The notes below the pieces were generated by a model. It was not told where the DNA came from. It did not search any database and worked only from the letters and a program-made list of their open reading frames with translations. The position numbers and the translations under genes were made by a program. A stretch of 47,916 bases of DNA from a virus: IMG/VR virus record IMGVR_UViG_3300022150_000094, positions 1 through 47,916 of that record; one strand, written 5' to 3'. Below, piece after piece: positions 1-36,496 of this stretch (positions are counted from its first letter, which is position 1; each line of letters starts with the position of its first letter).

Positions 1-390
1 TCAGGGACCGGAGAAGGTGTTTTTCTGATCGCCCCAGCTCAGTGGGAACGGCTCCATGAGTCGGGCGAGCGTGACGGCGCCGCCTTGTCGTCCTTGGAGA
101 ACGGCCTCGATGATGCCAGGTTCAAGCTGCGTGAGGCGCAGGATGCGCGTCATATAGGACGTCGCGATCTCCTCGCGCTCGGCCAGTTCGGCGATGGTGG
201 CGAACTCACCCGACTCGAGCATCCGCTTCCAGCGGAAGGCGCGGGCTAGCGCCTTGACCAGCGTGTTGTCCGCCTTGCGGTCTGGCTGGACGCCATCAGG
301 CAGCTGCATTTCCTTGCGCCCGCCGCGCTTCACGACGCGGAACGGAACGTGGAGCGTCACGGTGTCGAGGATCGGCGACCCGCGGGTCAT
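1..390 (-). CDS. Helix-turn-helix (ParB-HTH-like) protein of the recombinase operon
   Basis: 129 aa, complete: its stop codon is the first three bases of the window. Residues about 55-100 (FATIAELAEREEIATSYMTR) read as a helix-turn-helix of the ParB/KorB type, so DNA binding is inferred. Its ATG overlaps the stop of the recombinase gene as ATGA, which makes it the last cistron of a four-gene operon read right to left and probably translated by coupling. Small proteins of this kind commonly follow DUF2924-linked serine recombinases in alphaproteobacteria, though their role is unknown; a recombination-directionality or regulatory function is possible but not shown. No enzymatic motif is visible. 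Confidence 0.8.
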   Translation of the reverse strand: MTRGSPILDTVTLHVPFRVVKRGGRKEMQLPDGVQPDRKADNTLVKALARAFRWKRMLESGEFATIAELAEREEIATSYMTRILRLTQLEPGIIEAVLQGRQGGAVTLARLMEPFPLSWGDQKNTFSGP

Positions 391-1697
391 GCGGCCGCTC
401 CCATGACTCCGGCCAGCATCTCACGCGCGAGGCAGCCGAGGCCGTCAACGCGTAGCCGGACGTTCAGGCCATCCGTCCCGATGTCGACGCGCTCAACCAG
501 CAGCGCCACGATGCGGGCCTGCTCGGCGGGGAACAGTTCGTCCCACAGCGGGTCGAGCTGCTTTAGCGCTGCGCGGGCGTCGGCCTCAGTGATTTCGTCG
601 TCCTGCGCCCGAGCCGCTCTGAACGTGCCTGCCACAATCTCGGGCTGGCGAAAAACGGTGCGAAGCTGGTCGATGACGGCGGCCTCTATCTCGCCCGCTG
701 GCACACGGCCGACCGGGCACGATCCAGCGCCATGTTTCAGCACCGTCTGGCTCACATAGTAGCGATACAGCCGCCCGCCCTTGCGGGTATGCGTCGGAGA
801 GAAGGCCGCACCATCTGGGCCGAACAGCAGCCCCTTCAGCAACGCGGGCGTGTCGGCGCGAGTGCGGGCGGCGCGTTTCCGGGGACTCTCCTGCAGGATG
901 GCGTGGACCTTGTCCCAAACTGCCTTGTCGATAATTCCGTCATGCTCGCCGGGGTAGCTGTCGCCTTTGTGCACGGCCTCGCCGATGTAGGCGCGATTGT
1001 TCAGCAGGCGATACAGGTACTTTTTGTCGATCCGATTGCCACGGCTCGTCTGGACACCTCGCGCCGCCAGTTCCCGCGCCAGTTCTGTGCCGGAGCCGAT
1101 TTCGATGAAGCGGGCGAAGATCCAGCGGACATTGGCGGCATCGTCTTCCTTTACGATCAGTTTGCGGTCTTTCACCTCGTAGCCCAGCGGGGGCACGCCG
1201 CCCATCCACATGCCCTTCATCCGGCTGGCGCGGACCTTGTCGCGGATCCGCTCGGCCGTCACCTCGCGTTCGAACTGGGCAAAGCTAAGCAGGATGTTCA
1301 GCGTCAGCCGCCCCATAGACGTGGTGGTATTGAACGACTGGGTGACGGAAACGAACGTGACGTTGTTCCGATCGAATACCTCGACCAGTTTTGAGAAATC
1401 CATCAGTGAGCGCGACAGGCGGTCGATCTTGTACACGACGACGACATCAACCAACCCATCCTCAATGTCTTCCAGCAGCCGCCTCAACCCGGGCCGCTCC
1501 AGCGTGCCGCCGGAGATGCCACCGTCGTCATATTGATCACGGACCAGCACCCAGCCCTCGGAACGCTGACTGGCAATGTAGGCCTCACAGGACTCACGCT
1601 GGGCGTGGAGACTGTTGAATTCCTGCTCGAGGCCTTCCTCAGAGGATTTCCGAGTATATACGGCGCAGCGCAGTTTTCTGACGACGGGTTTGGTCAT
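387..1697 (-). CDS. Large serine recombinase (resolvase/invertase family), probable phage integrase
   Basis: 436 aa. The N-terminal resolvase domain has YTRKSS at residues 14-19, with the catalytic serine expected at Ser18, and IDRLSR at 91-96. The central 'recombinase' domain contains GTELARELAARGVQTSRG and LYRLLNNRAYIG. A C-terminal zinc-ribbon-like region follows (about 330-380), with PDGAAFSPTH, YYVSQTVLKHG and a single CPVG rather than a full Cys cluster. I start it at MTKPVVRK because AGGAGGGG lies just upstream and the ATG overlaps the DUF2924 stop as ATGA; the frame stays open 52 codons further upstream but without support. Family members carry out conservative site-specific integration and excision. 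It is the only integrase-like gene in the window and lies at its left end, so it probably mobilises the element. Confidence 0.93.
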   Translation of the reverse strand: MTKPVVRKLRCAVYTRKSSEEGLEQEFNSLHAQRESCEAYIASQRSEGWVLVRDQYDDGGISGGTLERPGLRRLLEDIEDGLVDVVVVYKIDRLSRSLMDFSKLVEVFDRNNVTFVSVTQSFNTTTSMGRLTLNILLSFAQFEREVTAERIRDKVRASRMKGMWMGGVPPLGYEVKDRKLIVKEDDAANVRWIFARFIEIGSGTELARELAARGVQTSRGNRIDKKYLYRLLNNRAYIGEAVHKGDSYPGEHDGIIDKAVWDKVHAILQESPRKRAARTRADTPALLKGLLFGPDGAAFSPTHTRKGGRLYRYYVSQTVLKHGAGSCPVGRVPAGEIEAAVIDQLRTVFRQPEIVAGTFRAARAQDDEITEADARAALKQLDPLWDELFPAEQARIVALLVERVDIGTDGLNVRLRVDGLGCLAREMLAGVMGAAA

Positions 1698-2146
1698 GCG
1701 CCCCTCCTGTGGTTTTTCAGCCCGAAGAACACCCAGCCGTTCCACCGTGTCCCGGTGATGGCGCGGGCAATGGCCGACAGGGACTTGTAAGGCCGTCCCT
1801 GCCATTCGAACCCGTCGGCGGTAACCGTGACGATCTGCTCGGTGCCCTGCCACTGGCGCAGCAGCCGTGTGCCGACGATAGGTTTCAGATCAGCGCGGAT
1901 GCGGCTCTTCTTACGATCGCCGCCGTCTAACTGCTCGCCGAGGGCTTCGAGCCGTTTCACCGTGTCCGGCTTGAGCCCGCCATAGGTCAGCTCTTGAATG
2001 CGGTAGGCCAGTCGGCTTTCGAGATACCGGCGATTGAATGGTGGTGGCTCGCTGTCGAACAACTCGCGCCATTGCTGCTTCAGGTCAGGCGTCGACGTTG
2101 TCTTAAGTGCGGCTAGGCGCGCTGGGATGAGATCGGGTTTGGTCAT
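1694..2146 (-). CDS. DUF2924 domain-containing protein
   Basis: 150 aa starting MTKPDLIPARL, with GGAGAAA upstream of the ATG. The core (LKQQWRELFDSEPPPFNRRYLESRLAYRIQ split over residues 22-52) and the C-terminal RPYKSLSAIARAITGTRWNGWVFFGL match the DUF2924 family as I know it. That C-terminal part resembles small DNA-binding domains found next to recombinases. It overlaps the recombinase downstream and the small gene upstream by ATGA on each side. Family members nearly always accompany this recombinase type, so a recombinase accessory role is inferred; the biochemical function is unknown. Confidence 0.88.
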   Translation of the reverse strand: MTKPDLIPARLAALKTTSTPDLKQQWRELFDSEPPPFNRRYLESRLAYRIQELTYGGLKPDTVKRLEALGEQLDGGDRKKSRIRADLKPIVGTRLLRQWQGTEQIVTVTADGFEWQGRPYKSLSAIARAITGTRWNGWVFFGLKNHRRGA

Positions 2147-16781: not shown

Positions 16782-18008
16782 ATGGACGTGATGGACCTGC
16801 CCCTTGGGCAGATCATTCCCTATGCGCGCAACCCACGGCGCAATGACAAGGCTGTGGCGGCCGTCGCGGCCTCGATTGCCGAGTTTGGTTGGCGTCAGCC
16901 GATCGTGGTGGATGAGGGGATGACGGTTCTTGCAGGCCACACCCGGCTTGCCGCCGCGCGGGAGCTCGGGTTGGAAACGGCCCCGGTGCACATCGCCAAG
17001 GGGCTCAGCGAGGCTCAGGCACGGGCGTTCCGGATCATGGACAACCGCTCGAGCGAGAATGCCGAGTGGGACAACGACCTGTTGAACCTGGAACTGGCGG
17101 ACCTGCTGGAGGCGAATTTCGATCTCGGGCTCACGGGCTTCACCGACGATGAGCTGAACGCGCTGATGAACAGCCTGGAGGACGGCACCGGCCCGCAAGA
17201 GGGCGAGGACGACATTCCTGACACCCCGGAGGATCCGATCAGCCGACCGGGGGATCTTTGGGTGCTTGGGAACCATCGGTTGCTTTGCGGCGACAGCACA
17301 GTCGCCACCGATATCGAGCGGCTGTTCGGCACCGTGAAACCTCTGCTGATGGTGACCGATCCACCCTACGGTGTTGAATACGACCCTTCGTGGCGCAACC
17401 AAGCAGGGGCCGCAAAAACCAAGCGCACCGGCAAGGTGCTAAATGACGACCGCGCCGACTGGCGCGAGGCCTGGGCGCTGTTCCCGGGCGATGTGGCCTA
17501 TGTCTGGCACGGCGCGCTGCATGCGACCACGGTCGCCGACAGCCTTGAGGCATCCGGCTTCAACATCCGATCCCAGATCATCTGGGCCAAGGATCGGCTT
17601 GTTCTGAGCCGTGGGGATTATCACTGGCAACATGAGCCGGCCTGGTATGCTGTGCGCAAATCCGGCAAAGGCCATTGGGCTGGGGACCGGAAGCAAACGA
17701 CACTCTGGCAGATCGCCAACAAGGATCAGGATGCGGAAACCGTGCACGGCACCCAGAAGCCTGTCGAATGCATGCGTCGGCCCATCCTGAACAACTCCAG
17801 CCCAGGTCAGGCCGTCTACGAGCCCTTCATGGGGTCCGGCACCACTTTGATCGCGGCCGAAACGACGGGTCGCGTCTGCTACGGGATCGAACTCAATCCG
17901 GCTTACGTCGATGTCGCCGTGGAGCGGTGGCAGCAGTTCACGGGCAAGGACGCTGTCCTTTCCGGCTCGGACGAGAGCTTCCACAAAATCAAAACCAAAG
18001 ACGTGTGA
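16782..18008 (+). CDS. ParB-domain / DNA adenine-or-cytosine-N4 methyltransferase fusion
   Basis: 408 aa; AAGGA lies 7 nt before the ATG. Residues 5-100 form a ParB/Srx N-terminal domain (IIPYARNPRRND, AGHTRLAAARELGL). The methyltransferase domain has TDPPYGVEYD (about 187-196) and, later, VYEPFMGSGTT (about 346-356). DPPY preceding FxGSGT is the beta-class N6A/N4C MTase order. Such ParB-MTases are common in phages and are usually orphan enzymes that modify phage DNA against host restriction. It lies 3 bp before the C5 MTase, so two different modifications may be made in tandem. Confidence 0.9.
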   Translation: MDVMDLPLGQIIPYARNPRRNDKAVAAVAASIAEFGWRQPIVVDEGMTVLAGHTRLAAARELGLETAPVHIAKGLSEAQARAFRIMDNRSSENAEWDNDLLNLELADLLEANFDLGLTGFTDDELNALMNSLEDGTGPQEGEDDIPDTPEDPISRPGDLWVLGNHRLLCGDSTVATDIERLFGTVKPLLMVTDPPYGVEYDPSWRNQAGAAKTKRTGKVLNDDRADWREAWALFPGDVAYVWHGALHATTVADSLEASGFNIRSQIIWAKDRLVLSRGDYHWQHEPAWYAVRKSGKGHWAGDRKQTTLWQIANKDQDAETVHGTQKPVECMRRPILNNSSPGQAVYEPFMGSGTTLIAAETTGRVCYGIELNPAYVDVAVERWQQFTGKDAVLSGSDESFHKIKTKDV

Positions 18009-18011
18009 GGC

Positions 18012-19088
18012 ATGCATGACCTGGCTTTACATCCCTCCGGAGATGCTTCCGGAGCCCGAAACGCATGCCTCTTTGGCCTCTCTGTGTGCTCCGGCGCAGG
18101 CGGGCTCGATCTCGGGCTCACGATCGCTATCCCCGGATATCGTGCTGTGGGCCATGTCGAACGGGAAACCTTCGCCGCAGCCACTCTCGTGGCGCGGATG
18201 GAAGACGCGTCCCTGGATTGCGCGCCTGTATGGGACGACGTTGGAACCTTCAACGGCCGCCCGTGGCGCGGCGCGGTGGACATCGTCACTGCGGGCTATC
18301 CGTGCCAGCCGTTCTCGGTCGCAGGCAAGCGCCTCGGCACCGAGGATCCACGCCACCTCTGGCCGCACGTCGCCCGCATCATCGGCGAGTGCGAGCCACC
18401 CTTCGTCTTCCTCGAGAATGTCGCCCATCATCTCCGCCTCGGTTTCCACGAAGTCGCCAGCGGACTGGTCGGCATGGGCTACCGCCTTGCGGCAGGCCTC
18501 TTTACAGCGGCGGAAGTCGGTGCGCCCCACAAACGCGAGCGGCTGTTCATCCTTGCCATCCGCGAGGGCTGCGAACTGGCCGACCCCGCGCGCCTGCTCT
18601 GGGACCCGCTCGAGTGGCGGGAACCGAACGGAAATGCTGCGAATGTGGCCGACGCCGCAGACCGACAGCTTCCGGAGCCGGGGCGGAGACCGGAAACACG
18701 AAAAGGGTCTGGACGGCATGGCGCGGGACTGGCCGACGCCGATGGCCAACGACGGCTGCAAGCCGAGCGCGGGCAACCGCAAGACGGCCGATCTGACCCA
18801 TGCAAGCCGCATGTGGATGACGCCGACGGCGAGAGATCACAAGGATGGGGCGACGACATTGGTGAACACGCCGGTGAACGGCCTGCTTGGCCGCCAGGTC
18901 CTCGTGACGCCGATGGCTGGGACCGATACCTCAGAGCAGCGCCGGACCTTGAACCCAGCATTCGTCGAGGCTCTGATGGGCTGGCCCACCGGGTGGACCG
19001 GCTTCGCCTCTGTGGCAACGGAGTGGTCCCCTTGGTTGCGGCGCATGCGCTGCGAACTCTCGCAGCTGAACTGCTGGCCGATGGATGA
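18012..19088 (+). CDS. C5-cytosine DNA methyltransferase
   Basis: 358 aa. Motif I LSVCSGAGGLDLGL is at 24-36, catalytic motif IV GYPCQPFS has Cys98, ENV (motif VI) is at 135-137, HKRERLFI (motif VIII) is at 173-180 and the C-terminal motif X region RLCGNGVVPLVAAHAL is at 332-347. The target-recognition region (about 185-320) is replaced by spaced (V/L)ADADG-type repeats. The annotated ATG is only 1 nt after GAGG, poor spacing, so translation may start further in or depend on coupling. Nearly all of it overlaps a second open frame (18016-19104). It probably marks phage DNA. No cognate endonuclease is adjacent. Confidence 0.9.
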   Translation: MHDLALHPSGDASGARNACLFGLSVCSGAGGLDLGLTIAIPGYRAVGHVERETFAAATLVARMEDASLDCAPVWDDVGTFNGRPWRGAVDIVTAGYPCQPFSVAGKRLGTEDPRHLWPHVARIIGECEPPFVFLENVAHHLRLGFHEVASGLVGMGYRLAAGLFTAAEVGAPHKRERLFILAIREGCELADPARLLWDPLEWREPNGNAANVADAADRQLPEPGRRPETRKGSGRHGAGLADADGQRRLQAERGQPQDGRSDPCKPHVDDADGERSQGWGDDIGEHAGERPAWPPGPRDADGWDRYLRAAPDLEPSIRRGSDGLAHRVDRLRLCGNGVVPLVAAHALRTLAAELLADG

Positions 19089-19104
19089 TGGATCGCTCGC
19101 ATGA
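18016..19104 (+). CDS. Overlapping-frame ORF across the C5 MTase gene, possible dual-coding gene
   Basis: 362 aa, same strand, shifted frame. Evidence that it is real: its ATG (MTWLYIPPEM) has GAGG at 5-nt spacing, better than the MTase ATG; its TGA overlaps the next gene's ATG as ATGA, the coupling seen elsewhere in this genome; and its C-terminal half is unlike a random shadow frame, with four WPTP/WMTP-type boxes (18646, 18730, 18814, 18901) and LNPAFVEALMGWPTGWTGF near the end. That ending is familiar from phage methylase-associated proteins. Against it: the N-terminal half is Ser/Arg-rich, as shadow frames often are. It could instead reflect a frameshifted product. Function unknown. Confidence 0.45.
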   Translation: MTWLYIPPEMLPEPETHASLASLCAPAQAGSISGSRSLSPDIVLWAMSNGKPSPQPLSWRGWKTRPWIARLYGTTLEPSTAARGAARWTSSLRAIRASRSRSQASASAPRIHATSGRTSPASSASASHPSSSSRMSPIISASVSTKSPADWSAWATALRQASLQRRKSVRPTNASGCSSLPSARAANWPTPRACSGTRSSGGNRTEMLRMWPTPQTDSFRSRGGDRKHEKGLDGMARDWPTPMANDGCKPSAGNRKTADLTHASRMWMTPTARDHKDGATTLVNTPVNGLLGRQVLVTPMAGTDTSEQRRTLNPAFVEALMGWPTGWTGFASVATEWSPWLRRMRCELSQLNCWPMDDGSLA

Positions 19105-19325
19105 AACAGTCACGCACCATGTCGATGGTGGAATCCGTCGCCAATGTCATCGTTGGCTACGGCGTTGCGGTGATCGCGCAGATCGTGATCTTCCCGATCT
19201 TTGGGCTGCACGCGACGCTGGCGCAGAACCTTAAGATGGGGGCGGTATTCTCAGTGGTGAGCATCATACGCTCGTTTGCGCTGCGGCGGCTGTTCGAGGC
19301 AATCCGGGTGCGGGCCCGTGTTTGA
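19101..19325 (+). CDS. DUF7220-like small membrane protein
   Basis: 74 aa with two probable membrane segments (about 14-33, NVIVGYGVAVIAQIVIFPIF; and about 45-60, KMGAVFSVVSIIRSFAL). The arrangement matches small phage proteins I know as DUF7220, which typically follow methyltransferase genes. The start overlaps the stop of the 18016-19104 frame as ATGA and is 13 bp past the stop of the C5 MTase. No catalytic residue. A membrane-associated host-takeover role is possible but unsupported. Confidence 0.78.
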   Translation: MKQSRTMSMVESVANVIVGYGVAVIAQIVIFPIFGLHATLAQNLKMGAVFSVVSIIRSFALRRLFEAIRVRARV

Positions 19326-20935: not shown

Positions 20936-21532
20936 GTGTCATCAGCCACACAGCCCATTGGGGTGATTGCCAAGCTGCTGGATCTGTCGGAGCGCCGCGT
21001 CCAGCAGCTGAGCCGGGAGGGCGTGATCCCGAAGGCTGAGCGCGGACACTATGACCTGATTGGGTCCGTGCGCGGTTATGTGCGGTATTTGCGCGACCAG
21101 GCAGTGAGAGCCCAAGCTGGTGCTCCGGATTATGCGGTCGAGCGGGCGCGGTTCATTCGCGCGCGGGCTGATCTCGCTGAAATGGAGGCCGAAGAAAAAC
21201 GCGGGTCGTTGATCATGGCAGACCAGATCGAGGCTGCCTGGATCGCCGTTCTGGCGCTTTTGAGAACCCGCTTGCTTGCGTTGCCGGATCGGCTGGCCCC
21301 GCAGGCTTTTGACCAACCCACCGTCGGAGAGACCCGGAACCTGATCCGCGCCGCAATCCGCGAGGTGCTTGATGATCTCGCAGAGCCAGACATTGAACTC
21401 GAGACCGACACTGACCTTGCGGAGATCGCCGATCCTGGTGCGCACGGTGAAGAGAGCGTTGACCGTTCTGCGGCCACCGCCGGACCTGACGATCAGCGAT
21501 TGGGCGGATCAGAACCGGAGGCTGAGTTCTGA
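20936..21532 (+). CDS. Terminase small subunit (Nu1-like)
   Basis: 198 aa, GTG start 8 nt after GGAGG. The N-terminal winged helix (IGVIAKLLDLSERRVQQLSR, then GVIPKAERGHYDL) is the MerR-like DNA-binding domain of lambda Nu1-type small terminases. A long helical region (AVERARFIRARADLAEMEAE) follows for oligomerisation, with an acidic tail. It recognises the packaging site and recruits the large subunit, whose gene overlaps its 3' end. Good family match by motif and position. Confidence 0.88.
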   Translation: MSSATQPIGVIAKLLDLSERRVQQLSREGVIPKAERGHYDLIGSVRGYVRYLRDQAVRAQAGAPDYAVERARFIRARADLAEMEAEEKRGSLIMADQIEAAWIAVLALLRTRLLALPDRLAPQAFDQPTVGETRNLIRAAIREVLDDLAEPDIELETDTDLAEIADPGAHGEESVDRSAATAGPDDQRLGGSEPEAEF

Positions 21533-23345
21533 GGCCAGTGCCGAGCCTGGCCAGTGGCGGACTGCCCGTGCGGAATACCAGCGCGGGATCATGGACGCGA
21601 TCTCGGATCCGGCCGCAGAAACTGTGGTGATCATGTCCAGCAGCCAAATCGGCAAATCGGAATCGCTGTTGAACATGGTCGGGTATCACATCGATCACGA
21701 CCCGGCGCCTATCATGGTGGTGATGCCCACGGAGCGGGATGCGGAGACATGGTCGAAGGACCGGTTCTCGCCGATGGCGCGAGATACTCTGTGTTTGCAA
21801 GGCAAGATCGCCAATCCCAAATCGCGCGATGGCAACAACAAGATCCTGCATAAGCGGTTCCCGGGCGGACATCTGACCATCGTTGGCGCCAACGCGCCCT
21901 CGGGACTGGCCAGCCGGCCGATCCGGCTGCTGCTGTGCGACGAGGTGGATCGATACCCGTTTAGCGCTGGCGCGGAGGGCGATCCGGTCAACCTCGCGCG
22001 CAAGCGGACGGTCACGTTCTGGAACCGCAAGATCGTGCTGGTCTCGACCCCCACGAACAAGGGCGCGAGCCGGATCGAGGCAGCATTTGAGGAAAGCGAC
22101 CAGCGGCGGTTCTGGGTGCCATGCCCGGAGTGTGGGACCGAACAGATACTGACCTGGCCGCAAGTGAGATGGGACAAGGGCGCAGACGGCAGCCACAAGC
22201 CGGACACCGCACGGTATCATTGTGTGGAGTGCGATGCGACTTGGCGAGACGAGATCCGCTGGGCAGCGGTCTCAAAGGGCCACTGGGTGGCAGAGCAGCC
22301 CTTCGGTGGCACGGCCGGGTTCCATCTCAACGAAATCTACTCGCCGTGGGTGCGGCTGCAGGCGATGGTGAAGACGTTCTTGTCAGCGCGCGCCGGCGGG
22401 GATGACATGATGAAGACCTTCATCAACACCTCGCTTGGTGAGACCTGGATGGAAAGTGGTGACGCACCAGATTGGCAGCGCTTGCAGGGGCTGAAGGAGG
22501 AATGGAAGCCCGGCACTGTGCCTGCTGGGGGTCTGTTCCTGACGGCCGGTGCTGATGTGCAGAAGGACCGAATTGAGGTTGATGTCTGGGCCTGGGGCAG
22601 GGGACTGCAAAGCTGGTTGATCGATCATGTTGTCATTGACGGCGGACCCGGCGATCCGGCCTGCTGGCAGCGCTTGAGTGATCTGCTGGGCCGGACCTGG
22701 CATCACGCCAGTGGCCAGCATCTGACGATTGCGAAGCTGGCCATCGACACCGGCTATGAGACCAGCGCGGTTTATGCCTGGGCGCGACAGATGGGCTTCG
22801 GTCAGGTGGCACCCGTGAAAGGCGTTGAGGGCTTCAACCGGGCGAGCCCGGTGACAGGGCCGACCTATGTAGACGCGACCATCGCAGGTAAACGACTGCG
22901 GCGCGGGGCGCGGCTTTGGACCGTGGCCACCTCGACCTTCAAGACCGAGACCTATCGCTATTTGCGCCAAGACCGGCCGACACCGGAGGAGATCGCAACC
23001 GGTGCGGCCTTCCCGGCTGGAACGATGCATCTGCCGTCATGGGCTGACAGCGAATGGCTCAAGCAGCTGACGGCGGAACAGTTGGTCACGGTGAAGAACA
23101 AGCGTGGCTTTGCAAAGCTGGAATGGCAGAAGCTGCGCGAGCGTAACGAGGCGCTGGATTGTCGCGTCTATGCCCGGGCCGCTGCGTGGATCGCCGGGGC
23201 CGACCGCTGGTCGGATGCGCGGTGGGGAGACCTGGAACGGCAGCTGGCGCTGCCGGACCATAGCAACGCGTCCGGCGCGGTGAAACCTAAGCTGGCGCGG
23301 GCAACTGCAGCGCGGCGGACGGTCAGGTCGAATTACATGGGGTGA
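21372..23345 (+). CDS. Terminase large subunit (lambda gpA family)
   Basis: About 657 aa. The ATPase domain has SSSQIGKSE (atypical Walker A, about residue 90) and LLLCDEVDRYP (Walker B). Zinc-ribbon-like CPECG...YHCVECDATW follows, then a nuclease domain with AGADVQKDRIEVDVWAWG and LAIDTGYE. This is the gpA order. The start is uncertain: ATG 21372 has GAGG 6 nt upstream but overlaps the small subunit by 161 nt, and GTG 21438 or 21447 would shorten it by about 22-25 residues. Drives ATP-powered genome packaging and cuts concatemers. Confidence 0.93.
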   Translation: MISQSQTLNSRPTLTLRRSPILVRTVKRALTVLRPPPDLTISDWADQNRRLSSEASAEPGQWRTARAEYQRGIMDAISDPAAETVVIMSSSQIGKSESLLNMVGYHIDHDPAPIMVVMPTERDAETWSKDRFSPMARDTLCLQGKIANPKSRDGNNKILHKRFPGGHLTIVGANAPSGLASRPIRLLLCDEVDRYPFSAGAEGDPVNLARKRTVTFWNRKIVLVSTPTNKGASRIEAAFEESDQRRFWVPCPECGTEQILTWPQVRWDKGADGSHKPDTARYHCVECDATWRDEIRWAAVSKGHWVAEQPFGGTAGFHLNEIYSPWVRLQAMVKTFLSARAGGDDMMKTFINTSLGETWMESGDAPDWQRLQGLKEEWKPGTVPAGGLFLTAGADVQKDRIEVDVWAWGRGLQSWLIDHVVIDGGPGDPACWQRLSDLLGRTWHHASGQHLTIAKLAIDTGYETSAVYAWARQMGFGQVAPVKGVEGFNRASPVTGPTYVDATIAGKRLRRGARLWTVATSTFKTETYRYLRQDRPTPEEIATGAAFPAGTMHLPSWADSEWLKQLTAEQLVTVKNKRGFAKLEWQKLRERNEALDCRVYARAAAWIAGADRWSDARWGDLERQLALPDHSNASGAVKPKLARATAARRTVRSNYMG

Positions 23346-24890: not shown

Positions 24891-26414
24891 ATGGGCCTGC
24901 TTGATCGTTTCCGTCGGCCCGAAAGGGGTGGCCCGGCAGCCGTGTCGGCGCGCCTTGAAGGGGCCATGTCCAAGCGCCGGCTTCGCGGCTGGAACCCGCC
25001 GCTTGAGAACATCAACTCGCTGGTCGCCTCGGGCGGTCCCCGCCTGCTGGCGCGGTCGCGCGAACTGGTCGTGACCAACGGCTATGCGGCGAATGCCTGC
25101 GAGGCCTTTGCATCCAACATGGTGGGGGATGGCATAAAGCCGTCTTCGTTGATCGCGGATGCGGCGTTGCGCGACAGCGTTCAGCGGCTCTGGCTCGCGT
25201 GGACCGACGAGGCTGACGCCGACGGGTTGACCGATTTCTATGGCCTGCAGGCCATGGTGGCGCGGGAAATGTTCGTGGCAGGCGAATGCTTTGTCCGGCT
25301 GAGGCCGCGCCGCGCCGAGGATGGTCTGCTGGTGCCGATGCAACTGCAGCTCCTGCAGTCAGAAATGCTGCCGTTTGAGAAGACAGGCACGGCTATAAAT
25401 GGCAATCGTATCCGCTGCGGGATTGAGTTTGACCTGATCGGCCGACGCGTTGCGTATCACTTTCGCCGCAGCCATCCGGGCGACAGCACTGACCATCGCG
25501 TTGCGGCACCGGAAACCGTCCGCGTGCCCGCCGCGGATGTGCTGCACATCTACCGTCCCATTGATGCAGGCCAGATCCGGGGCTTGCCGCATGTGGCACC
25601 CGCCATGGTGCGGCTGTTTCTGCTGGACCAGTACGACGACGCTGAACTGGACCGGAAGAAGACGGCGGCGATGTTTGCGGGCTTCATCACCAAGACCGCG
25701 CCGGAAGACCCGATGATGGGGGAGGCCGAGGCCGATCTCGATGGGGCGGCCATGGCCAGCCTTGAGCCCGGCACGATGCAGGTGCTGCTGCCGGGCGAAG
25801 ATGTGAAGTTCTCCAGCCCGGCGGACGTCGGCGGCGGCTATGAGGCGTTTCAATATCGGACGCTCTTGTCGGTCTCGGCCTCACTGGGGCTACCGTACCA
25901 CCTCGTCACCGGGGATGTGCGCCAGGCGAACTATTCCAGCTTGCGGGCCGAGCTCGTGGAGTTCCGCCGCCGCATTGGCCAGCTACAGCACGGGGTGATC
26001 GCACACCAGCTGTGTCGGCCAATCTGGGCGCGCTGGCTTGAGGCCGCGCAATTGGCGGGCCGGTTGGAGTTATCAGACCCGGCGGCTGCACGGATGGTGC
26101 AATGGATCCCGCCACGCTGGGATTGGGTCGATCCGCTCAAAGACATCCAGGCGCAGGTGCTGGCGATGGAAGCGGGCATCACCTCGCGGCGCAAGGTGGT
26201 CGAGGCCACTGGCTACGACGTCGAAGAGGTCGACCGGGAGAATGCAGCGGATGCTGCGCGCGTCGCTGCTCTTGGGCTCATTTACAGAACCAGCCCCGGT
26301 GAAACGCAGGGTGCGCGGGCGACACCCACCGGGCGTCCCAATCCCGGGGATGGGGCCGACGGCGACACGAACGACGACGGGGCCGCCACGCCTGACAATA
26401 CCGAACAGGAGTAA
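24891..26414 (+). CDS. Phage portal protein (lambda gpB family)
   Basis: 507 aa. Signature stretches: LLARSRELVVTNGYAANACE, MVAREMFVAGECFVRLRPR, the YRPIDAGQIRGLPHVAPAM block and the tail-end DYEEV-like YDVEEVDREN. This matches the lambda portal family that forms the dodecameric DNA gateway at one capsid vertex. It ends with a low-complexity Pro/Gly/Asp tail and is followed at once by the maturation protease. Confidence 0.92.
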   Translation: MGLLDRFRRPERGGPAAVSARLEGAMSKRRLRGWNPPLENINSLVASGGPRLLARSRELVVTNGYAANACEAFASNMVGDGIKPSSLIADAALRDSVQRLWLAWTDEADADGLTDFYGLQAMVAREMFVAGECFVRLRPRRAEDGLLVPMQLQLLQSEMLPFEKTGTAINGNRIRCGIEFDLIGRRVAYHFRRSHPGDSTDHRVAAPETVRVPAADVLHIYRPIDAGQIRGLPHVAPAMVRLFLLDQYDDAELDRKKTAAMFAGFITKTAPEDPMMGEAEADLDGAAMASLEPGTMQVLLPGEDVKFSSPADVGGGYEAFQYRTLLSVSASLGLPYHLVTGDVRQANYSSLRAELVEFRRRIGQLQHGVIAHQLCRPIWARWLEAAQLAGRLELSDPAAARMVQWIPPRWDWVDPLKDIQAQVLAMEAGITSRRKVVEATGYDVEEVDRENAADAARVAALGLIYRTSPGETQGARATPTGRPNPGDGADGDTNDDGAATPDNTEQE

Positions 26415-33760: not shown

Positions 33761-33987
33761 ACCGACCAACCACCTTTGAAGGCTGGCAGGTCTGGGATCT
33801 GGTCGGTCGTCTCGGAGGTCAGCTGCGCATGCTGCCCGGTGCCGTGATCGGTTGGGACATGTCGGCCGCACTCGCGCTCGGTGACGCGCTTGATATCCCG
33901 CCCTTGGCCATGGCCGAGCTGCTGCCCGTCGTAGAGGCGGTGATGGTGGCCAAACTCAACGAACAGATGGAGCATTCCCATGGCTGA
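33667..33987 (+). CDS. Frameshift extension (gpT-like domain) of the tail assembly chaperone
   Basis: 106 codons open in the -1 frame from the slippery site to TGA at 33985-33987, overlapping the tape measure start by 8 nt. It has no good start codon of its own, as expected of a frameshift extension. It begins with a compact Cys cluster, YCEACAQACPDCPARL (four cysteines as CxxC and CxxC), a possible zinc knuckle. It continues as FEGWQVWDLVGRLGGQLR and a helical C terminus (PLAMAELLPVVEAVMVAKLN). The T domain normally binds the tail tube protein. Annotation pipelines usually miss or mis-start it. Confidence 0.75.
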   Translation, partial: RLRALAEWSFGGGERYCEACAQACPDCPARLNRPTTFEGWQVWDLVGRLGGQLRMLPGAVIGWDMSAALALGDALDIPPLAMAELLPVVEAVMVAKLNEQMEHSHG

Positions 33988-36496
33988 GAAGCGCGTTTCT
34001 GTCCGCCTTGCAGCCGTCGGCGGACGGCAAGTGCGCGCCGAGTTGGAAGGCGTGGGCGAAGCCGGATCGCGCGGGTTTGGACGTCTCAGCCGGGAGATGG
34101 AGGCGGCTAACGCACGGCTTGCGGCATTCTCGCGGCGCGTGCGGATTGCCGCTGTCGCAGCAGTGGCGGCGACTGCGGCCGCCGGTGTCGCCATGGTCCG
34201 CTCGGGTCTTCAGACGGTCGATGCGCAGGCCAAGCTCGCCGCGTCCCTCGCCACCACGGTTGCCTCAATCCAGACGCTGGAGCGCGCAGGCGATCTGGCG
34301 GGCGTCTCCATGGGGCAGGTCGAACAGGCAGCCCTGCAGCTGACGCGGCGGCTCAGCCAAGCCGCAGCGGGCACCGGACCAGCGGTCGATGCACTGAAGC
34401 GGCTGCAGGTCTCGGCCTCAGAACTGCAAGCGCTCCCGCTGGATCAACGCATCGCCCTGATCCAAGACCGGCTGGCAGAGTTTGTCCCTGAGGCTGAGCG
34501 GGCAGCGCTTGCCTCTCAGCTCTTTGGGGACCGGGCCGGTTTGGTGTTCACGCGGATCGATACCGCGACCTTGCGCCAGGCGACAGACGACGTGCGGGAT
34601 TTCGGGGTCGTGGTCTCCGATCAGGATGCCGCCCAGATCGAGCGCACCAACGATGCGATCTCGCGGCTTGGCCTGATCTGGCGCGGCCTGTCGAACCAAC
34701 TGGCCGTTGCTGCAGCCCCGGCGCTTGAAGCTGTCGCCGATGCAATGGCGGCGGTGGCCAATCGCACCGGACCCCTCGGCATCGCCATTCGCGGCCTCTT
34801 TGACAACATTGGCCGCCTGATCACCTACGCTGGCACGCTCGCGGGCCTTCTGGCCGGGCGCTGGGTTGCGGGCATGGCCGTTGCCGCTCTGTCTGTGCGC
34901 GGTCTTGCAATGGCACTTGTGGTGATGCGCGCAGCCCTCATCCGCACCGGAATAGGCGCGCTGGTCGTCGGCGCAGGCGAGCTGGTCCATCAGTTTACGC
35001 GTCTTGTCTCCGGCGCAGGTGGATTTGGCAACGCCATGGCCCTTCTGGGTGGTGTTGCAGCCGAGGTTTGGGACCGCATCAAACTGGGGGCTGCCAGCTT
35101 TGCAGCCTCTGCAATGGCGGCCTTTGCCAACGTTGAGGCGGCCTCAGTGACCGCGATGCAAGGCGCACTTGCAGGCGTCGTCGGGTTCGCCAATGGCGCG
35201 GTGAACAGTTTCGAGGGGGCGTTTGCGGCCATCAAAGCCGTCTGGGGTCTGTTGCCTGCTGCCATCGGCGATCTGGCGTTTCAGGCGGCAAACTCTCTGG
35301 TCTCGGGCGTTGAGGCAATGCTGAACGGTGTCACCTCCCGCATCAACGGCTTTCTCGGCGGGCTGAACACCGGGCTTGAGGCACTTGGGGTAGACAGGCG
35401 GATTGGGCTGATTGCAGATCTCGATCTGGGAGAGCTTGAGAACCGCTTTGTGGGTGCTGCGCGCCAGACCGCCAGTGCGGCACAAGATGCATTCGCCAGC
35501 GCGTTTGCGGACAATCCGCTGACCGTTCCAGATCTGGGGCTGACCGGAGCCGCTCGAGACGCCGCCACCTCTGCCGAGGCCTGGAGGCAGACAGCTGCCA
35601 CGCTTGCCGACGGAGCCCTGCAGCCTCTGGCCTCCTTGGAGGCATTGCGCGCAGCAATGCGGGACACCGGACCCGAGGTTGAGGGTGCCTTGGACGGGGC
35701 AGCACTCGCAGCAGATCGGCTCAATGCGGCCTTGGGTGGGGATGACGCAAGCGGGCCAGCAGCGGCGCTTGAGGCGACGACGGCGGCCGCCGGGCGGGCC
35801 GGAGCGGCGATGCAAACTGCGGCGGATGTGGCAGGGCAGGCTTGGGAAACAGCGACCGATGCGCTGGCCCGCACAAAGGAGATCGCAAAGGGCCTCGCTG
35901 CAGATATCACCGGGCCGATCAAGGAGGCGCTGAAGTCAGGCGAACTGAGTTGGCAGAGTTTCGCGGGCGCGGTGTCAGGGATTGCCCAGAACCTCGCCAA
36001 CCGCCTGATCGATACCGCCTTCAAGCCGATTGAGGACGCGCTGTTCCGCGCCTTCTCCGGGGCTGGCGCGGGCAGCGGTGGCGGTGGTGGTCTTTTTGGC
36101 GGTCTGACCAGCGCCCTTGGGGGTCTGTTCGGAATGGGCAGCACGTTCGCACGCGGGGGAGCCTTTGGGCAGGCAGGCGAGATCACAGCCTTTGCCAGCG
36201 GCGGCGTTATCTCAGGCGGGGTCGTCTCACGCCCGACCGTGTTTCCTTTTGCGCGCGGCATTGGCCTCATGGGCGAGGCAGGCCCGGAGGCGATCCTGCC
36301 CTTGCGCCGTGGCCGGGGTGGTCGGCTCGGCGTTGAGATGAACGGAGAGAGTGCCGGCTCCACTTCTCCTGCGATGTCGACAAAGATCATCAACGTGCTC
36401 GATCCGTCTGTCGTTGGCGACTACCTCGCCACGCCCTCGGGCGAACGCGCCATTCTGAACGTCATTCGCCGCAACCGCGGGGCGATCAATGCCTGA
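33980..36496 (+). CDS. Tail tape measure protein
   Basis: 838 aa. An N-terminal helical region (RAELEGVGEAGSRGFGRLSR) is followed by Ala-rich hydrophobic stretches (AAVAAVAATAAAGVAMV and, near 290-330, several membrane-like segments) and long coiled segments. The C-terminal GGRLGVEMNGESAGSTSPAM precedes IINVLDPSVVGDYLATPSGE. Length sets tail length; the hydrophobic parts may form the DNA-ejection channel. The start lies inside the chaperone extension and the stop overlaps the next gene by 8 nt. Confidence 0.92.
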   Translation: MAEKRVSVRLAAVGGRQVRAELEGVGEAGSRGFGRLSREMEAANARLAAFSRRVRIAAVAAVAATAAAGVAMVRSGLQTVDAQAKLAASLATTVASIQTLERAGDLAGVSMGQVEQAALQLTRRLSQAAAGTGPAVDALKRLQVSASELQALPLDQRIALIQDRLAEFVPEAERAALASQLFGDRAGLVFTRIDTATLRQATDDVRDFGVVVSDQDAAQIERTNDAISRLGLIWRGLSNQLAVAAAPALEAVADAMAAVANRTGPLGIAIRGLFDNIGRLITYAGTLAGLLAGRWVAGMAVAALSVRGLAMALVVMRAALIRTGIGALVVGAGELVHQFTRLVSGAGGFGNAMALLGGVAAEVWDRIKLGAASFAASAMAAFANVEAASVTAMQGALAGVVGFANGAVNSFEGAFAAIKAVWGLLPAAIGDLAFQAANSLVSGVEAMLNGVTSRINGFLGGLNTGLEALGVDRRIGLIADLDLGELENRFVGAARQTASAAQDAFASAFADNPLTVPDLGLTGAARDAATSAEAWRQTAATLADGALQPLASLEALRAAMRDTGPEVEGALDGAALAADRLNAALGGDDASGPAAALEATTAAAGRAGAAMQTAADVAGQAWETATDALARTKEIAKGLAADITGPIKEALKSGELSWQSFAGAVSGIAQNLANRLIDTAFKPIEDALFRAFSGAGAGSGGGGGLFGGLTSALGGLFGMGSTFARGGAFGQAGEITAFASGGVISGGVVSRPTVFPFARGIGLMGEAGPEAILPLRRGRGGRLGVEMNGESAGSTSPAMSTKIINVLDPSVVGDYLATPSGERAILNVIRRNRGAINA

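Follow-up and report, generated by a model that had tools for sequence, protein, structure and literature searches.

The small subunit of the two-subunit methyltransferase M.EcoHK31I is encoded inside the large one, in another reading frame. In this enzyme one polypeptide carries motifs I-VIII and X and the other carries motif IX, and a TRD has been predicted in the large subunit, which is a prediction and not a demonstrated property (PMC3404938). M.AquI, on the other hand, is naturally split after motif VIII (PMC3404938). A further case of a second frame in such a gene is the ShiLan element, an HNH gene hidden out of frame within a mycobacteriophage methylase (PMC11855218).

The locus considered here lies in a window of 47,916 nucleotides (the whole stretch of DNA that was analysed) from an element whose integrase, terminase, portal and tape-measure genes mark it as a temperate tailed phage. 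We believe that the locus very probably encodes the two subunits, alpha (frame A) and beta (frame B), of one phage orphan C5 cytosine methyltransferase with the layout of M.EcoHK31I, in overlapping frames (Table 1). Compared with the published description of M.EcoHK31I, motifs I-VIII and X are likewise in alpha and motif IX only in beta; however, beta begins only 4 nt downstream of the alpha start and overlaps alpha along its entire length, and the selection tests assign the recognition region to beta, in contrast to the TRD of M.EcoHK31I, which is predicted in its large subunit. The locus differs from M.AquI in that motif X is in alpha, so that motifs IX and X are not both in the second polypeptide. 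As in the ShiLan case, a phage methylase gene contains a second gene in a different frame, but the second frame of ShiLan belongs to an inserted mobile element and not to the enzyme. Alpha and beta match PHROG_363 and PHROG_1008, respectively; both are labelled "DNA methyltransferase", and the labels are silent on their being two frames of one gene. In our literature search, which did not extend to the original description of M.EcoHK31I, there was no report of such an overlap beyond the known split enzymes.

Table 1. Features of the locus and of the element that carries it, in positions of the window.
Feature	Position	Strand	Details
Frame A, proposed alpha subunit of C5 cytosine methyltransferase	18012..19088	+	358 aa; motifs I-VIII, unconstrained linker, motif X
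Frame B, proposed beta subunit	18016..19104	+	362 aa; +1 relative to A; N-terminal extension, WPTP-rich putative target-recognition region, motif IX
Overlapping start codons ATGCATG	18012..18018	+	alpha ATG 18012, beta ATG 18016
Motif I, frame A	18069..18119	+	LFGLSVCSGAGGLDLGL, residues 20-36
Motif IV with catalytic PCQ, frame A	18276..18332	+	VDIVTAGYPCQPFSVAGKR
Motif VI (ENV), frame A	18402..18422	+	FVFLENV
Motif VIII, frame A	18519..18554	+	GAPHKRERLFIL
Block at frame switch	18577..18599	+	TGGCCGACCCCGCGCGCCTGCTC; nearly invariant at all three codon positions; at most 9/115 sequences differ at any column
Putative target-recognition region, frame B	18577..18939	+	WPTP boxes 18577, 18646, 18730; WMTP 18814; selection ratios
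Motif IX, frame B	18940..19005	+	RRTLNPAFVEALMGWPTGWTGF; dual constraint; reversal test; contiguous with motif X in relatives
Motif X, frame A	18999..19052	+	RLRLCGNGVVPLVAAHAL; A-type variation from 19008; PHROG_363 match to residue 350
Next gene, DUF7220	19101..19325	+	PF23858 8.9e-33; start overlaps beta stop (ATGA)
ParB-N domain fused to N4/N6 DNA methyltransferase	16782-18008		directly upstream; PHROG_498
Integrase/invertase-type gene	387-1853	-	PHROG_95, PHROG_125
Terminase	21369-23345
Portal	24891-26414
Tape measure	33980-36496

Two open frames from a double start

The earlier note had called two ORFs over these bases, and both are open with their coordinates exact. The WPTP and WMTP boxes that it read in B are there (three WPTP and one WMTP), as is the C-terminal sequence LNPAFVEALMGWPTGWTGF, which ends at 19005, and the ATGA by which the stop of B overlaps the next gene is present at 19101 and is widely kept in relatives (110/124 and 55/66 loci in two sets). 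The double start reads ATGNATG in 113 of 115 relatives and GTGNATG in the other 2, counts in which the beta start was itself part of the retrieval query. The GAGG at 18007-18010 does lie 5 nt before the ATG of B in the window, as had been noted, but its conservation as a ribosome site fails: GAGG stands 1-2 nt before the alpha ATG in 39/115 relatives and 75/115 have no such site, so we have dropped this argument. Both starts lie shortly after the stop codon of the gene before them, in the window as in the arrangement most often seen, so coupled re-initiation at either ATG is plausible.

Few named phages or plasmids were matched by tblastn with B, and in each one read both frames were open in the same +1 relation; these include Synechococcus phage Ssp-JY39, Komagataeibacter phage phiKX1 and Lacticaseibacillus phage R9.1, and further dual-frame replicons come from Shinella, Sphingomonas and Roseicitreum, with a Paenibacillus plasmid as well. 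Scans with B as the query fetched 80 genome and 80 viral loci, and a scan with A only fetched 80 viral loci. Full-length homologues of B were found in most of the 160 loci fetched with B, and both frames are open throughout in 161 of 168 loci when this B-selected set is taken together with the named records.

Apparent B stops at codon 0 were discounted, as these lie upstream of the start of B. Stops were scored by region in 67 loci picked with frame A only, after removal of near duplicates. Frame B is stopped in the N-terminal part of one locus and in the middle or C-terminal part of none; stops in B beside an intact A, which the earlier note held would speak against dual coding, are thus not the general picture among relatives. 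Frame A has a stop in the middle of 1/67, and the third frame is interrupted by stops in the middle as well as the C-terminal part of every one of the 67. Among 124 B-selected loci, A is stopped in the middle in 3 and in the N-terminal part in 1, and B in the middle in 1. Loci with one frame broken are L013, L038, L086, L131 and L184 for A, and L037, L247 and, near its end, L172 for B. With frame A held and its synonymous codons redrawn, 1.2-1.5 B stops per locus would be expected over the N-terminal 191 codons (open by chance in ~0.2), and with frame B held, 3.0-3.4 A stops per locus in the middle (open by chance in ~0.03). Set against these expectations, the observed openness indicates that B is kept open where A dominates and that A is kept open where B dominates.

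The frame that evolves as protein

Across 115 distinct relatives, the third positions of frame A are the most variable from 18016 to ~18590. From ~18600 to 18900 the third position of B is the most variable (0.20-0.31) and its first and second positions are nearly fixed; nearly every position is held from ~18963 to 19007, and the A pattern of variation is back from 19008. The constrained frame therefore switches along the gene, from A to B at ~18600 and from B to A at ~19008. A matching crossover is seen in mean amino-acid identity to the window, which is 0.89 for A and 0.76 for B in the N-terminal part, and 0.76 for A and 0.90 for B in the middle.

Selection was measured by sorting each change by its effect in both frames, which gives two ratios per frame. 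Over 18591-18956, dNN/dNS for B was 0.18-0.21 and dNN/dSN for A was 0.97-1.06; the statistics pool related sequences, and their pair-bootstrap intervals ignore relatedness and are hence too narrow. In A-selected loci the ratios were 0.18/0.14 for A and 0.65/0.51 for B in the N-terminal part, 0.97/1.02 and 0.21/0.22 in the middle, and 0.09/0.13 and 0.21/0.30 in the C-terminal part. A sham +1 frame on the upstream gene gave 1.01/1.26 and a sham frame on the short DUF7220 gene gave 0.67/1.06; given the latter, the first of the two B ratios for the N-terminal part carries little weight by itself, and the case for B there is made by the second ratio together with the 4-fold sites and the stops. At the 4-fold sites of A, variation was 0.19 (N-terminal part) and 0.03 (middle), compared to 0.38-0.58 for the flanking genes of these loci. 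Both frames show constraint over the motif-IX segment LNPAFVEALMGWPTGW.

By these evolutionary tests both frames are real. Motifs I-VIII and X are under constraint in A, and the middle region evolves as protein in B only, the amino acids of A there being unconstrained. The constraint on both frames that the earlier note proposed is borne out, the synonymous profile not being that of a single frame. Its related suggestion, of a recognition region evolving together with an overlapping gene, stands as far as dual constraint goes but not in its premise that A is a complete enzyme. Nor do these tests place the putative target-recognition region in A, as had been supposed: it is encoded, like motif IX, in B.

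Two local features of this region deserve mention. At 18646-18660 the window and some relatives are without ~35 recognition-region codons (RLWPTPRASANENRQTKPTPSQEAGKHGMNLATSAAM) that are present in most relatives, possibly lost by recombination between WPTP repeats. In addition, the 23-nt block at 18577-18599 may reflect local double constraint or may be a cis signal.

Motif placement and split relatives

Alpha matches PF00145 (3.7e-30) over residues 23-189 only, which correspond to profile positions 4-167 of 324, and PHROG_363 (2.9e-57) over residues 23-350. Beta matches PHROG_1008 (4.3e-19) and PHROG_27243 (1.2e-13); no Pfam or NCBIfam model matched beta. The motifs that define a C5 catalytic domain, namely I, IV with PCQ, VI with ENV, and VIII, are all found in alpha, and neither polypeptide carries the recognition region, IX and X alongside that domain, as a monomeric C5 enzyme does. 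Frame A had been credited with all core motifs; motif IX is absent from A and present in B. When a chain was spliced from A (I-VIII), B (middle and LNPAFVEALMGWPTGW) and A (X), the PF00145 match grew to 4-317 of 324, and it fell back to 4-169 or less when either the B segment or motif X was reversed. The gain in Pfam score was only ~4 bits for the window; for L335, splicing raised the score from 121.0 to 127.5 bits and extended the match from profile positions 2-196 to 2-320, L249 extended slightly, and L005 gave no extension of PF00145.

Because these gains are small, relatives that are naturally split provide the stronger argument. In L316, L333, L338, L339, L343 and mycobacteriophage Gladiator (gp87/gp86), alpha terminates after motif VIII, and an overlapping +1 ORF encodes the recognition region together with IX and X in a single frame. 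This is the likeness to M.AquI, with IX and X together in the second polypeptide, and L252 shares it. WPTP-type boxes occur in the +1 ORF of these relatives, though not in all; the motif-IX segment reads GQLNPDWVECLMGFPIGWTDI or near it, and ARFSEWMMGWEEGWV in Gladiator, whose gp86 matches PHROG_1008 at 7.7e-86.

Other candidate lines of evidence were set aside. A structure prediction for beta from 54 homologues had a mean pLDDT of 44 and was not used, and a profile of beta found no credible relative among solved structures. Two relatives with A and B in one frame, L344 and L341, are not taken as key evidence, as each may be a single indel or sequence error: beta-like sequence persists in another frame over the catalytic part of L344, and the frame switch of L341 falls inside motif IV. 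A model of L344 was likewise rejected as evidence for a recognition fold, its C5 methyltransferase match spanning only ~170 columns, in the catalytic domain.

Programmed ribosomal frameshifting could in principle yield one chain, if ribosomes left A for B near 18577-18600 and returned to A ahead of motif X. The nearly invariant block sits at the switch point, and the joined domains would make a complete enzyme in one chain. However, two shifts would be required, alpha is open through the middle, which frameshifting does not need, and alpha and beta are separate ORFs in split relatives. Furthermore, beta has its own ATG in 115/115 aligned relatives, with an N-terminal frame that is kept open and constrained from there; given this, the frameshifted isoform that the earlier note had offered is not needed, and we regard frameshifting as quite improbable.

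Alternatively, beta could be a real overlapping protein with another job, for example a regulator or an anti-restriction factor, and not the recognition subunit. Its N-terminal extension (18016-18576) holds no known domain by Pfam, and no confident fold was obtained for beta alone, as this idea would allow. Against it, the beta-type recognition region and motif IX share a frame with motif X in split relatives, alpha is without motif IX and without a constrained recognition region, and PHROGs labels beta a DNA methyltransferase. We therefore hold another job for beta to be very improbable, and favour its being the recognition subunit.

The +1 layout is not restricted to the clade of the window. 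In two further clades, retrieved with Escherichia phage K1ind2 alpha and with Paenibacillus beta, beta is +1 in nearly every locus that has both, the overlaps are mostly 500-1270 nt, and variation changes frame as in the clade of the window. Beta was matched in 13 of 299 genomes from one bacterial phylum; at 19 of the 20 beta places listed, some of which are the same gene, there is a motif-IV ORF with an overlapping +1 ORF, and motif IX is recognisable at 17 of those 19. The layout recurs in elements of Escherichia, Xanthomonas, Synechococcus, Lacticaseibacillus and Paenibacillus. That alpha alone is translated and is the enzyme, the openness of B being a by-product of codon usage, is barely credible, for although Pfam matches frame A only and the GC content is high, the selection tests contradict it in the middle, where A is unconstrained and B constrained, the control gene shows no such effect and the layout persists in Lacticaseibacillus and Paenibacillus elements.

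At one locus, L238:176-2017, the dual gene contains an inserted ORF (426-902) that looks like an HNH endonuclease; alpha begins anew downstream with a second motif-I N-terminus (802-2004), and beta is open across the insertion (176-2017).

A proposed two-subunit enzyme in a widespread phage family

Based on our observations, we propose the following model. Alpha would fold the AdoMet-binding and catalytic domain (I-VIII), with motif X at its end, and would read the recognition region out of frame as a linker whose sequence is irrelevant provided that it contains no stop. Beta, translated from its own start and spanning the whole gene, would bring the target-recognition region and motif IX. The two would then assemble into an active enzyme, as reported for M.EcoHK31I. 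The likely role of this putative methyltransferase is the defence of phage DNA, which it would methylate and so protect from host restriction.

As for its history, we infer that a one-base change after motif VIII may have split an ordinary enzyme, that beta may then have been extended backwards over the catalytic domain, and that a second change, between IX and X, may have put motif X back in alpha. Such a history would leave the middle of alpha stop-free yet otherwise free to vary. We consider it likely that the locus represents a widespread family, filed as PHROG_363 and PHROG_1008, of two near-full-length overlapping genes that begin from one double start. In this family the recognition region would be provided in trans and by the second frame alone, the middle of alpha would be a stop-free but otherwise neutral read-through, and the N-terminal extension of beta would be a new domain, overprinted on the catalytic one.

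In most annotations this gene is reduced to one of its frames or is called broken. Only frame B is annotated in Ssp-JY39, phiKX1, Sphingomonas and Roseicitreum, only frame A in R9.1 and Paenibacillus, and both in K1ind2 and PhiXhv-28. In E. coli ECCTRSRTH03 (L366:564-1733), RefSeq gives the alpha frame as two incomplete pieces, when alpha (519-1730) and beta (631-1659) are in fact both fully open. The locus therefore exposes a systematic annotation problem, in which frame A is kept, frame B is kept or the gene is split into incomplete pieces.

To our knowledge, long conserved overlapping gene pairs on the same strand have rarely been demonstrated outside small viruses. The pair described here spans 1.1 kb, has its selected frame resolved region by region and recurs across distant hosts. 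It would connect a common phage family with a two-subunit layout for which one studied enzyme is known, with the recognition region moved to the other frame relative to that enzyme. As specificity and catalysis would lie in different frames, the locus may allow one to test directly how enzyme evolution proceeds when parts of the enzyme share the same bases.
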